Shown one piece after another: positions 28,869-33,867 of a stretch of 64,000 bases of DNA (positions are counted from its first letter, which is position 1; the number at the start of each line of letters is the position of its first letter). Below the pieces are notes generated by a model. The model was not told the origin of the DNA and made no database searches. It worked only from the letters and a program-made list of their open reading frames with translations. Origin of the DNA: a virus. Position numbers and translations under genes: made by a program. The stretch is from IMG/VR virus record IMGVR_UViG_3300042292_001109, positions 1 to 64,000 of that record; one strand, 5' to 3'.

Positions 28869-28891
28869 GGGAGCTTCGGCTCCCTTTTTTT
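28869..28891. terminator. Strong terminator after gp32
   Basis: GGGAGC, TTCG loop, GCTCCC and seven T; it also overlaps the end of the minus-strand tail gene. Confidence 0.9.
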
Positions 28892-31800
28892 ATGCCATTA
28901 ATCCACCTTGCGTACTCCACATACTTCCTTCTTCCATCATTTTTATAGTTGGATCATCGTTTCTTACCCCAGGAACAGATTTTCCTGTTCCTGCTGGAGC
29001 AGGTGGAGGAGGAGTTTGTTGAGCTTGCTGTTGTGGAGGTGCTGCAGGTTTAGGTGAAGTTTGTCCATTTTGATTTCCTGTTAAATTATTACGTTGTTCG
29101 TTTAATGAACTCATTTCTGTGTGAATATCAGATAAACGATCTAGTTGTTTATCCATTGTTTCTTTATCAACATTAACTCCAGATTGACCAATTTCATTTC
29201 TTTCGTTTTCTAGAGTAGCTTTTTGTCTGTCAATTTCCGCAACCTGTTCTTCTGTGTCAGTATTTTTTACAGGAGATGCAGTATCTTTTCGACCTTCTAA
29301 TATGTCACCTGGACCTACTTCTTTGCCATGCCTCATATAATATCCAGGTTTTCCTGGAATTGGAGTTGTATGATATTTAGCCAAAGGATCTGGGTTGTTT
29401 ACTGGATCTTTTTCGTGTGCTTCTGCTGCTTTATCTAACTCAGTTGGTTGATATTCTTCCGCAGTTCTTGTTGTAACTCCTCCTCCAGTTGTTACTTCTC
29501 TATGTTTATTAGTCGTAGTAGTATATTGCGACGTTTCTATTGTTTCTTTTGGAGAAACATGGTGTTCGTTTGCTGTAGTAACATTTTCCACAGTTTCAAC
29601 GTATGGGGAAGGGTTTTCTTTGTTTATTCTATTAAATTCAATATTATTTCGTTCTCTACTTATTTCACTATTTTTCGCATTTATTTCGTCAACTGTTAGG
29701 TTTCCTGGATTTTTAGCAAGTTCTTCTGCTTGTTGTGCAAGTTCCTCTTCTCTAATTTCATCTGGAGAAGCATTTGACATATCTTTTTTTGGCGCATATC
29801 TTGTTGCATGTTCTGTAACAGTTGATGAAGAAGCAGTTTTTGTCGTTACTTCGTCTTCTGCAGGAACATCATACGGGCTAGATTTTTCCTCTTCTCCTGG
29901 AGCTATAAAATATGGATTTCTTGTTCTATCTCCAGTAAGTTCTACTCCTTTTATTACAGGTTTTGCTGAAGAAGTTTCTTTTTTATCAGGTAAACTTTTA
30001 CCCATAAGTTTTTCGGCATTTCTTACTCTTTCTGAAGAATGCCCTCCATGCATACTTGCTGCAGTTATTTCGTATTTTCTTTCAACAGATTTAGCAGCTC
30101 CTTCAGCAGTAGTTTGTTTTCGAAGGTCGTTTCCTGCGCTTTTATGTGAATTATTTAATTCCCAATCTACAAATTCCAACTGATCTTCAAGAGAAGCTCC
30201 AACTAAATCTTTATGCATTATTTCTTTAAATTTAGCTTGGCGATCTGGGTGCCATTGAGCTATCCCTACTGCTTTGCCTCCATCTCCGCGTCTTTCTCCT
30301 GATATTACATCTTTGTTAAAATTTCCTGATTCTCCTTGTAAGTTTCCAACAATTCCTGCAGCTTGTTCTTCTGTATACCCCTTATTCATAAAGAAGTTTT
30401 TTGCATATGCTGCTTTATCATCTCCTCCATTTAATAACTCAGCTCCAACAACTGCTCCGCCAACTCTTGCTGCTGTTGGAGCAACAGCTTTAGCTGCGCT
30501 GCCCGCAGCTTTAGCGCCACCTAAAATTCCTCTTCCTATTTTTGAGAGTAAGCCAACTTTTTTTGCTGGATTTAGCGCAGAAACAGCAGCTGCGCCTGCA
30601 GCTTTAGGGTTAATTTTACCCAATAGTTTTGACCAGAAACCTTTATCTGCTTCACCCATTCCTCCTTCTTCTCCGCCTAAACCTCCCCCGCCTCCGCCAT
30701 AAATGGGGGTTGCAGATCCCATTTCATTCTGACGAGCTTGCATATTTGCAGAATTTAAATCATTTGTAGCATTTTGTTGTGATTGTGATCGCGTTAACGA
30801 AGAAACATCTCTAGATATTGAATTAATAGTATCATTTGTTTTTGCTAATACATTATAAATTTTATTTAATACTTCAATTGCAGATTTTCCTTGAACGTCT
30901 CCGCCACCGAAATGACTTTCACCGATTCTACCAGAATCCCCGCCAGAGGGCATTGAATTAAATGTTGACCCAACTGAACCTCCGCCAGTAAATAATGATC
31001 CCATCCCTGCACTAATCCCCCTGAATGGATTTGACCCCTTTCCAACAGCTGCTCCTAATGCTCCACCTGCTACATCTCCTAATAAATTACCTGCTCCTTT
31101 TTTTATATCTTCCCATGCTTCTCCTGGATGATCAATTGCATTATCAACCCAATCTACTCCCTTTTGAGCTTTTTCTTGCCATTTGGTTTTTTCTTCGTCA
31201 GATAAATTTTCATAATATTCGCCTGCTGGTATTCCAATAGCAGCACCTAATCCTGCTCCTTTTAATGTAGTTTTACCTAAACTTGCAATTCCACTACCAA
31301 CAGATTTTGCTCCCTCGACAACCTTTCCGCCAGCCCAATCTGCGCCCTGAACAATTTTATTTTTAGTCCAATCTGCAACTTTACCAAAAATACTTTGTTC
31401 TGGCGGCGGAGTTATTGTTTCTTGAACAGTTTCCGTCGCTCTTGTTGTGTTACTTCTAAATGGAGTTTCTGTAGCAGTGGAATTTGTTGCAGTTCTTGCT
31501 TGCTGCTGTTCTGCTTGCGCTCTTTGAATAGATTCCTGTGCGCGTTGTTCTCGGGCAGCTGCTCTTGCTGCCCGCTCTGTAGATAATGCTTCGTCTGCTT
31601 TATCTGCAGCACTTTTAAATACATTACTTACTTTTTTTAATGAAGGAATATTTTCGCCAATTACTTCAGCAGCACCCTTAAACAATTTTGGAGCAGCTTT
31701 AAATGCAGCTTTACCTGCTGCTCCTCCAAGTGCAGTAGTAGCAACATCTCCTGCAAAAGATGCTATTGCTCCTCCTTGACCTTTTAATGCTTGGCTATAT

Positions 31801-32060
31801 AATTTTTCTGCACCTTGTCTATCACCAGCAGTTGCTGCTTCAACAAATTTCATTGCATCATCAGCGCTGGATATGTATTTTAATTGTTCTTTTTGACTTA
31901 AAGTTAAATTATTTAATTTACTTTCTCTTTCAACAATCCAATTTCTATCTTTGCTATTTTGACTTACGCGAGAAAATTCATCTTTTGTTTGATTATATGC
32001 ATTACTTGCATATTCTTTTGCATTATCTAAAAATGATGTATCTGAATTATTAGTTGCCAT
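28890..32060 (-). CDS. Large tail protein with phage tail-lysozyme domain (tape-measure/hub candidate)
   Basis: The protein has 1056 aa. Residues 1-200 are helical with an Ala/Glu/Arg coiled stretch; 220-540 alternate glycine-rich and hydrophobic helices (GLGAAIGIPAGEYY, ARVGGAVVGAELL), as in tape-measure proteins. Around residues 555-670 lies a tail-lysozyme domain: GYTEEQAAGIVGNLQGESG (catalytic Glu), AVGIAQWHPDR, LEDQLEFVDWEL. The remainder is low-complexity, Thr/Glu/Pro-rich. It directly follows the gp51-like frame, the place of the long tail protein in many phages. I infer a cell-wall-cutting tail tube/hub protein. AAAAGGAATATG precedes the start. Confidence 0.7.
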   Translation of the reverse strand: MATNNSDTSFLDNAKEYASNAYNQTKDEFSRVSQNSKDRNWIVERESKLNNLTLSQKEQLKYISSADDAMKFVEAATAGDRQGAEKLYSQALKGQGGAIASFAGDVATTALGGAAGKAAFKAAPKLFKGAAEVIGENIPSLKKVSNVFKSAADKADEALSTERAARAAAREQRAQESIQRAQAEQQQARTATNSTATETPFRSNTTRATETVQETITPPPEQSIFGKVADWTKNKIVQGADWAGGKVVEGAKSVGSGIASLGKTTLKGAGLGAAIGIPAGEYYENLSDEEKTKWQEKAQKGVDWVDNAIDHPGEAWEDIKKGAGNLLGDVAGGALGAAVGKGSNPFRGISAGMGSLFTGGGSVGSTFNSMPSGGDSGRIGESHFGGGDVQGKSAIEVLNKIYNVLAKTNDTINSISRDVSSLTRSQSQQNATNDLNSANMQARQNEMGSATPIYGGGGGGLGGEEGGMGEADKGFWSKLLGKINPKAAGAAAVSALNPAKKVGLLSKIGRGILGGAKAAGSAAKAVAPTAARVGGAVVGAELLNGGDDKAAYAKNFFMNKGYTEEQAAGIVGNLQGESGNFNKDVISGERRGDGGKAVGIAQWHPDRQAKFKEIMHKDLVGASLEDQLEFVDWELNNSHKSAGNDLRKQTTAEGAAKSVERKYEITAASMHGGHSSERVRNAEKLMGKSLPDKKETSSAKPVIKGVELTGDRTRNPYFIAPGEEEKSSPYDVPAEDEVTTKTASSSTVTEHATRYAPKKDMSNASPDEIREEELAQQAEELAKNPGNLTVDEINAKNSEISRERNNIEFNRINKENPSPYVETVENVTTANEHHVSPKETIETSQYTTTTNKHREVTTGGGVTTRTAEEYQPTELDKAAEAHEKDPVNNPDPLAKYHTTPIPGKPGYYMRHGKEVGPGDILEGRKDTASPVKNTDTEEQVAEIDRQKATLENERNEIGQSGVNVDKETMDKQLDRLSDIHTEMSSLNEQRNNLTGNQNGQTSPKPAAPPQQQAQQTPPPPAPAGTGKSVPGVRNDDPTIKMMEEGSMWSTQGGLMA

Positions 32061-32261
32061 CTATTGCATATTCCTTTTAGCTTCTTGTTGTTTTCGTCTT
32101 TCTTCTTTGTCTTTTAGATACTGCACCAATAAACCAACATAAACTTCCCTTTCCCAAGGGATCATCTCTTCCAACTCATGTAATCTGTATCCATGATGCT
32201 GCATCATGTTAAAATTTGTTTTATAAAAAGTTGTAAGATCAACATTACCAAGAATTAAATA
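32061..32261 (-). CDS. 51: gp51-like frame, probably reached by -1 frameshift from gp26
   Basis: The frame encodes 66 residues from the slip site: YLILGNVDLTTFYKTNFNMM, then QHHGYRLHELEEMIPWERE and a Lys/Glu-rich helix. The sequence looks coding from the very start (regular spacing, no stop), but the first start codons are the two ATGs at 32202-32207, which would give only 47-48 residues. No ribosome-binding site precedes them. It ends directly before the ATG of the 1056-aa gene. I infer a gp26-gp51 fusion of 306 aa made by slippage at 32261-32267, with possible internal initiation as an alternative. Confidence 0.6.
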   Translation of the reverse strand, partial: YLILGNVDLTTFYKTNFNMMQHHGYRLHELEEMIPWEREVYVGLLVQYLKDKEERRKQQEAKRNMQ

Positions 32262-32980
32262 AAAAAATCAAAAATATCTCGTACTTCTATAGAATGATCA
32301 AATCCGCATTTATTACATTTAATACCTAATTTTTTAACGATTTTTGGTTCATTTGCAAAAAATTCTTCTATTTTTACATATTTTTCTGGAGGTAATTCTC
32401 CAATCCAATCAACAATATTTTGTAATGGAACATCTTTTGCGCTATAAGCTGAATTATCGTCATAAATAAATTCAACGTTTTTAGCAATTATTTCAAGAAT
32501 TTGCTGCGGAGTAGGTAATGCATCACCAATAGCATCTTTTTCAAATCTTTGATAACGTAATTTTAATCCAACTTTATCTGTTACTTCAATAATAGGAGAA
32601 ATATCTGGTTTAATTATTTCCAATTCAGTCAAAAGATTTAATTCGTGTTCCATAATATTATTACATTTTTTATCTTCTTCTGTTATATTTTCGCATCTAT
32701 ATTTTAATTCAAGGATTTCAGATTCAGATCTTGCTCGTAATTGATAAAATAAAAATTCAACATCATTTAATGGTAAATCAGCAACTTCTGTTGAATCAAC
32801 ACAACAATTTTGTGCTATTTGAATTATCGCATCAACTAATGAATTATTATCTCCTGATTCTTTAGCCATGGCTAGAATCTTTTGTTCTTTTACGTTGTAA
32901 GGTCTATATTTTACAGTTAATTCTGATATTGGTAATTTAACTGTATATGTTGGCATATCAATTTTTGGTAACAAACTCAT
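32255..32980 (-). CDS. 26: gp26-like baseplate hub / tail assembly protein
   Basis: The protein has 241 aa (T4: 208). MSLLPKIDMPTYTVKLPISE, then VKYRPYNVKEQKILAMAKES and LPLNDVEFLFYQLRARSESE match the T4 baseplate protein family (PF12322 as I recall). Two Cys pairs (YRCENITEEDKKCNN and KCNKCGFDH) may bind zinc. Its last codons are GAT TTT TTT ATT TAA, a perfect slippery heptamer before the stop. AGGATTAATAAAAT precedes the ATG. The gene follows the tube-like protein. Confidence 0.8.
   Translation of the reverse strand: MSLLPKIDMPTYTVKLPISELTVKYRPYNVKEQKILAMAKESGDNNSLVDAIIQIAQNCCVDSTEVADLPLNDVEFLFYQLRARSESEILELKYRCENITEEDKKCNNIMEHELNLLTELEIIKPDISPIIEVTDKVGLKLRYQRFEKDAIGDALPTPQQILEIIAKNVEFIYDDNSAYSAKDVPLQNIVDWIGELPPEKYVKIEEFFANEPKIVKKLGIKCNKCGFDHSIEVRDIFDFFI
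32261..32267 (-). promoter_or_regulatory. Slippery heptamer T TTT TTT (-1 frameshift site)
   Basis: Seven T on the minus strand, in phase as X XXY YYZ with gp26 codons, two codons before the gp26 stop. A -1 slip leads into the gp51-like frame. Confidence 0.55.
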
Positions 32981-32997
32981 ATTTTATTAATCCTATT

Positions 32998-33867
32998 TTA
33001 TCTTAATCCAGATGATATTGTAAAGTTCGACAACCCAAGATTAGGCAATGTCGATGTCGCAGCTACAGGATTTCCGCTTTTGAAAGCTCCTTTTATGCTA
33101 TTTATTGTTGCAGCAGTTTGAATTGCTGTTCCTAATAATTCTCCTAATGGACCTCGTGAATAGTTCCCAGTTCCTTCTACTGATAAGAAATTGTATGAAT
33201 ATTCTGTGTATGCAAATGTAACATTTAATGATTGGGCTTCATTTTGAGCTGACCAAGATAATGGTACTTGATTTATTGATACGGGAAATGCATCATATAA
33301 TGTTACTTCTACCAATGGATCTCCAGTAATAGCAAAATGTGTAATTTTTACTGTCCCAACATAATCTGCTTTGTATTGTACATTATATGTTGTTTCTTGT
33401 ACTTTTTTACCTCTATAATTTATAGTTTCTGCTCTTCCTGTTATAAAAGAAATCCATTTTTGAAAAAATTTTCTAGTAATTTCTACTCCAGATCCTCTTG
33501 TATAGAATGCTAATGTAATATCGTTATATCCAGTCATAACTGAAAATTTTTCAGTAACTCCATATATTTTCTGTGTTACTGTTGCAGTAGATTCTCCAGG
33601 TAATTCTGCAGAATGACATAAAAATGATAAACTTTTTTCTGATGAACTGCCTCCCGATATAGTAAAATTTCCAGAAGATTGATCGGGGGGTATTTGTGAA
33701 AATATTTCAACTTTAAAATATGCAGTTCTACCAACATCATATTTTCTTAATTCAGCTATTCCTTCTGCCATATTATTTTTTGTTGCTGGACCCGACCCAT
33801 TCATTAAAGTATTAAAACCGCTTTTAATACTTCCGGCTGTATCTGATAGTGTATCGAAAAATGACAT
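32998..33867 (-). CDS. Tail tube-like baseplate protein (gp54/gp19 family)
   Basis: The protein has 289 aa. After a 40-residue leader come beta-strands of the tail-tube fold: YFKVEIFSQIPP, LSFLCHSAELPGES, DITLAFYTRG, KITHFAITGDPLVEVTLYDAFP and VTFAYTEYSYNF, the last being the usual tube-family ending. T4 has two such proteins, gp19 (tube) and gp54 (tube initiator, 320 aa). Length and location beside gp26 favour gp54 or a hub-proximal tube protein. GAGGAAAACAATA precedes the ATG. Confidence 0.7.
   Translation of the reverse strand: MSFFDTLSDTAGSIKSGFNTLMNGSGPATKNNMAEGIAELRKYDVGRTAYFKVEIFSQIPPDQSSGNFTISGGSSSEKSLSFLCHSAELPGESTATVTQKIYGVTEKFSVMTGYNDITLAFYTRGSGVEITRKFFQKWISFITGRAETINYRGKKVQETTYNVQYKADYVGTVKITHFAITGDPLVEVTLYDAFPVSINQVPLSWSAQNEAQSLNVTFAYTEYSYNFLSVEGTGNYSRGPLGELLGTAIQTAATINSIKGAFKSGNPVAATSTLPNLGLSNFTISSGLR

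Follow-up and report, generated by a model that had tools for sequence, protein, structure and literature searches.

A probable programmed -1 frameshift joins the gp26- and gp51-like frames of an uncultured T4-like phage

Results

An uncultured phage very probably makes two forms of a tail assembly chaperone from a single gene by programmed -1 ribosomal frameshifting, a reading to which we give a probability of about 0.92. The gene is a homologue of T4 gene 26 and is located in the stretch of 64,000 nucleotides that we analysed (the window), which is part of a 126-kb viral record. Most ribosomes would read gp26 through to its TAA stop codon and produce a short form of 241 aa. A minority would slip back one base on the sequence T TTT TTT, where tRNA-Phe would re-pair in both sites. 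These ribosomes would read 66 further codons to produce a 306-aa gp26-gp51 fusion. Both the slippage in the host and its rate are what we infer here. By analogy with gpG/gpGT of phage lambda, many copies of the short form would coat the tape measure protein, and a few copies of the long form would bring tube subunits to it via their extra domain. The features of the region are listed in Table 1.

Table 1. Features of the gp26 region, with positions in the window
Feature	Position	Strand	Support or remark
Long tail protein, 1056 aa, directly downstream of the extension	28890..32060	-	PHROG 9570 (tape measure), E=2e-29; PF18013, E=2.4e-26
gp51-like -1 frame extension (putative TAC-C, lambda T counterpart)	32061..32261	-	66 codons plus TAG; PHROG 634 and PHROG 150 matches; open in 231 relatives
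gp26 zero-frame stop codon TAA	32255..32257	-	sequence
gp26-like ORF, 241 aa (putative short form of the chaperone; TAC-N, counterpart of lambda gpG)	32255..32980	-	PF12322; PHROG 150; AF2 model
Slippery heptamer T TTT TTT	32261..32267	-	in phase; one codon separates it from the gp26 stop
GTACGAGAT, weak SD-like match where many relatives have GGAGGGA	32276..32284	-	pairs at about -3 kcal/mol
Tail tube-like protein, directly upstream of gp26	32998..33867	-	PHROG 45, E=6e-25; Phage_TTP_2

Gene content and the two reading frames

The gp26-like protein matches PF12322 with an E-value of 3.6e-47 and a score of 161 bits, against a curated cutoff of 24.5, and PHROG 150 (baseplate hub) with an E-value of 3.4e-48. 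It thus scores above the curated cutoff for membership of the T4 gp26 family (PF12322/PHROG 150). The extension matches PHROG 634, annotated as "baseplate hub assembly catalyst" (gp51), with an E-value of 1.2e-25, and it also matches the last 42 positions of PHROG 150 (240-281). One gp26-like and one gp51-like stretch are present in the 126-kb record; a second, full-length gp51 was not found in this record, which may be incomplete.

The sequence-only reading of this DNA had proposed the gene order tube-like protein, gp26, extension and long tail protein, and the PHROG and Pfam matches bear this out. The genes on this strand encode, in order, a head closure protein (gp4), a DNA end protector (gp2), the tail tube-like protein, gp26, the extension and the long tail protein, which places gp26 and its extension between the tube and tape measure genes. 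Judging from its matches, the 1056-aa protein is likely to be a tape measure protein with a tail lysozyme domain. The phage tail lysozyme domain PF18013 sits in the middle of this probable tape measure (28890-32060, minus strand).

At the 3' end of gp26, the minus strand (32269..32255) reads GAT TTT TTT ATT TAA. The in-phase T TTT TTT noticed previously is indeed present at 32267-32261, and it is a heptamer of the X XXY YYZ type located within the overlap of the two frames. The codons of the -1 frame (n=66) span 32261..32064 and are followed by a TAG (32063-32061) that directly adjoins the ATG (32060) of the 1056-aa ORF. It had also been claimed that a -1 slip opens 66 residues that lack a start in their first 18 positions and end at the next gene. 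This proved correct, the earliest ATG, GTG or TTG of the extension being at residue 19 and the fusion of gp26 with the extension being 306 aa long.

As a background count, we scanned the 49 ORFs of the window (18,923 codons) for in-phase T TTT TTN sequences and detected 18 sites. The site at the end of gp26 is the only one of these that is located within 5 codons of a stop codon, and the only one at which the -1 frame is open for at least 40 codons. Because none of the other 17 sites is close to a stop or leads into a long open frame, and because the heptamer is kept in relatives (see below), its presence at the end of gp26 is not due to chance.

Conservation of the frame relation and the heptamer

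We then compared 231 gp26 loci from IMG/VR contigs and named phages. The hosts of the named phages include Synechococcus, Caulobacter, Stenotrophomonas, Rhizobium, Sinorhizobium, Ochrobactrum, Vibrio, Aeromonas, Pseudomonas, Cronobacter, Acinetobacter and Dickeya. Clustering at 80% gp26 identity resulted in 126 clusters, window included. An open -1 extension past the gp26 stop codon was found in all 231 loci; these extensions are 49-78 codons long, except for a few that the end of the contig cuts short. Homopolymer runs are prone to sequencing errors and a continuous long protein does exist in the T4 branch, so a sequencing indel or recent mutation might have split a continuous gp26-gp51 gene. 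However, every one of the 231 loci has the same frame relation, among them finished isolate genomes and several independent contigs from the window's own species. This rules out a sequencing indel and makes the split the least credible of the explanations considered.

The sequence-only reading suggested looking in related phages for the same heptamer at the end of gp26. T TTT TTN is located 0-2 codons before the gp26 stop in 121 of the 126 clusters; one further cluster has it at a distance of 3 codons, which brings the total to 122 of 126. The other Phe-Phe pairs within gp26 genes have the T TTT TTN form in only 9 of 144 cases, and the difference (using 121/126) gives a Fisher p of 3e-58. This value assumes independent clusters, an assumption that does not hold, but the difference is very large, and T TTT TTN is conserved beyond what the amino acids need.

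The codons of the extension that precede its first likely start were analysed for the relatives as a set, the window's own close relatives being too few alone. Substitutions numbered 1043 for third positions in the -1 frame, against 331 and 255 for the other two. This third-position bias supports coding constraint in the -1 frame on the part of the extension without a start, which would hence be translated in that frame.

These results bear on the view, assumed by most public annotations, that the gp51-like frame is a gene in its own right, translated from a start of its own, either the ATG at residue 19 of the extension or a start used by termination-reinitiation after the gp26 stop codon. 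A separate "baseplate hub assembly catalyst" is annotated in S-N03, S-PM2, Cr30 and others; an ATG or GTG is present at most 6 codons after the gp26 stop in 45 of the 126 clusters, and some of these starts overlap that stop (TGATG in Cr30). However, 71 of the 126 clusters have no ATG or GTG in the first 13 codons of the extension, and the heptamer is retained with or without a nearby start. The SD-like element found in relatives (see below) is located about 20 nt upstream, too distant for a start near the gp26 stop. As for the ATG at residue 19 in the window, the bases that precede it (ACAAATTTTAAC) contain no SD-like sequence. We rejected a separate gp51 start, given the 18 codons without a start and the preceding stretch that is conserved as protein, and consider this explanation very improbable. 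Most of the free-standing gp51 annotations in public records are probably frameshift extensions. Our results suggest that, in most such phages, it is wrong to annotate gp51 as an independent gene that has a start of its own. Loci at which gp51 is annotated as free-standing with a chosen start include L003 (3708-3896), L033 (3016-3189) and L038 (3043-3186).

Signals flanking the slip site

In the relatives, an SD-like GGAGG is present about 10 nt upstream of the slip site and is favoured beyond what protein sequence and codon usage explain. GAG encodes Glu in 46 of 74 cases at the SD-like site, compared with 703 of 2835 elsewhere, and pairing with the anti-SD sequence at the upstream site is stronger than in synonymous shuffles. 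RNA structure is in excess in folding windows that start 5 nt after the heptamer: the mean z is -1.09 relative to dinucleotide shuffles and z is below -2 in about 29% of the clusters, while the mean z of folding windows elsewhere nearby is close to 0 and goes no further than about -0.4.

A downstream RNA stem had been named as something to look for. Many relatives have one, about 5 nt downstream of the heptamer, but it is absent from the window, where the folding z is about 0, and no consensus stem was found in the window's clade. Likewise, the SD-like element found about 10 nt upstream in many relatives is represented in the window only by a sequence pairing at about -3 kcal/mol. Because the stem is absent in its clade and its SD-like match is weak, the window's slip appears to rely on the heptamer alone.

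In several members of the S-PM2 clade (L150, L130-L152), of which S-PM2 is the best example, a near-perfect hairpin of at least 12 bp is located just after the heptamer. Within this clade, one pair of the stem is exchanged from C-G to U-A. The stems of other cyanophage clades differ from it but are spaced similarly from the slip site.

The signals of the relatives also bear on the possibility that transcriptional slippage on the T7 run, with an extra U in the mRNA, gives access to the -1 frame in place of ribosomal frameshifting. The window does have seven consecutive Ts, and homopolymers are known to cause transcriptional slippage in bacteria (PMC5009743). However, the bacterial cases described there involve A or T runs about 9 long, and most relatives carry just six Ts followed by a C. 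Moreover, the SD-like element and the downstream stem of the relatives act on ribosomes. We therefore regard transcriptional slippage as even less probable than a separate gp51 start. A point that counts against ribosomal slippage is that, in E. coli, ribosomes slip less readily on U UUU UUU than on A AAA AAG (PMC5009743).

Exceptions and the T4 branch

Genes 26 and 51 of T4 are located on opposite strands. Residues 1-201 of T4 gp51 (249 aa) are gp26-like (PF12322, 3.9e-52) and are followed by the same extension as that of the window. By this composition, a gp26-like part plus the extension, the T4 branch is seen to encode the short and long forms by two genes. Relatives with a separate gp51 had been named beforehand as evidence that would speak against frameshifting. 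They were clearly found only in the T4 branch, and there gp51 consists of a full-length gp26-like part plus the extension, which fits the model of a short and a long form. In a tree, the groups of T4-type gp26 and of the gp51 N-terminal part (gp51N) join, with long branches and weak support; a single local duplication giving rise to T4 gp26 and gp51N is not proven by this tree.

In the Ackermannviridae (L041, L212-L229), the gp51-like -1 extension is kept without T TTT TTN. A common sequence at the end of gp26 is GA(A/G) ATT TTC AT(T/C) TAA, and the -1 frame is open just 10-22 nt ahead of the gp26 stop. These sequences would imply a weaker slip on T TTC or some other mechanism. In Vibrio phage SUMAE (L043, 3700-3735), gp26 ends with CAA CTT TTC AGA TAA; an open -1 gp51-like extension is present and a canonical heptamer is not.

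The slip of T4-like gp26/gp51 might be driven by a dnaX-like signal of three parts, namely an internal SD, T TTT TTY and a stem, with the side parts turning over by lineage. Some clades, including that of the window, would have kept the heptamer only, the T4 branch would have swapped the slip for a second gene, and the Ackermannviridae would reach the -1 frame with the non-canonical ATT TTC. We give this general scheme even odds.

Predicted fold of gp26

An AF2 model of gp26, based on an alignment built from the window and IMG/VR loci, has a pLDDT of 93.8. The top Foldseek match of the predicted N-domain is the tail assembly chaperone of HK97 (HK97 gp13), with E-values of 0.64 and 0.85 for the Foldseek matches, which are not significant alone. 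VIA-align placed 3FGX, 2OB9 and 3KLU (3FGX, HK97 gp13 and YqbN, respectively) first with Z scores of 7.9, 7.3 and 6.9, just below the tool's caution line of 8; the fourth match scored 4.9 and the rest below 3. Although these scores are moderate, they support a TAC N-domain fold for the N-domain of the gp26 model, and among solved structures the HK97 tail assembly chaperone and YqbN come nearest to it, so that the suggested comparison of folds came out in favour of the earlier reading. In a search of PDB sequences with the gp26 profile, no phage matches were obtained, only weak ones to Integrator subunits. The sequence searches of libraries and the PDB gave no link from gp26 to the lambda, P2 or HK97 chaperone families.

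The chaperone reading of gp26 is supported by the top structure matches and the gene order. The same two lines of evidence, with HK97 gp13 and YqbN as the matches, support the earlier idea that gp26 and gp51 are a divergent form of the chaperone pair. Short and long forms with a common N-terminal part, gp26 and the 306-aa fusion, are predicted from sequence only. The tape measure and tube proteins are probably the targets of both forms, as they are for lambda gpG/gpGT (PMC5009743), and it is by this analogy that we infer a chaperone role in the window's phage.

Discussion

The tail assembly chaperone genes of T4-like phages were reportedly identified by Vladimirov, Gautam and Davidson (Virology 2022). 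Frameshifting is said in that work to be conserved in several T4-like groups, with T4 using genes 26 and 51. The chaperone reading and frameshifting in T4-like groups were already published in 2022, and the window is a well-supported further example. It shares with those chaperones the protein family, the short and long forms, and the poly-T sites in the short gene. It differs in that it comes from an uncultured 126-kb record, its heptamer is a homopolymeric T7, and it has no strong SD or stem. The window thereby adds an uncultured lineage to those T4-like phages in which tail chaperones appear to be made by recoding. A 2016 review described G-T frameshifting as widespread in tailed phages "except T4" (PMC5009743). 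Poly-T slippery sites in T4-like TAC genes are mentioned in a passage of the Adele paper (PMC12846349), which cites Vladimirov et al., and a passage of PRFect cites the same authors for T4-like phages with a short gene and a fused long gene.

The window and phage T4 have homologous proteins, T4 gp26 being the short form and T4 gp51 a gp26-like part with the extension. However, T4 has two genes on opposite strands and no frameshift, whereas the window has one gene with a probable slip. The window's relatives have the same three-part layout as E. coli dnaX, with an internal SD-like element, a heptamer and a stem. Their slippery codons encode Phe instead of Lys, the window retains the heptamer only, and the slip would lead to the longer product. 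With the comparative set, the parts played by the individual stimulators (SD, heptamer and stem), as well as the switch of T4 to two genes, become directly testable.

The window resembles lambda gpG/gpGT, and their counterparts in P2 and HK97, in the order tube, short form, long form and tape measure, and in a -1 slip, predicted for the window, close to where the short gene ends (PMC5009743). For HK97, the likeness extends to the modelled N-domain of gp26, which resembles HK97 gp13. The heptamer of P2 is likewise of this kind, T TTT TTG. Compared with the lambda, P2 and HK97 proteins, gp26 is longer, and many gp26 members have Cys pairs of the zinc-ribbon type.
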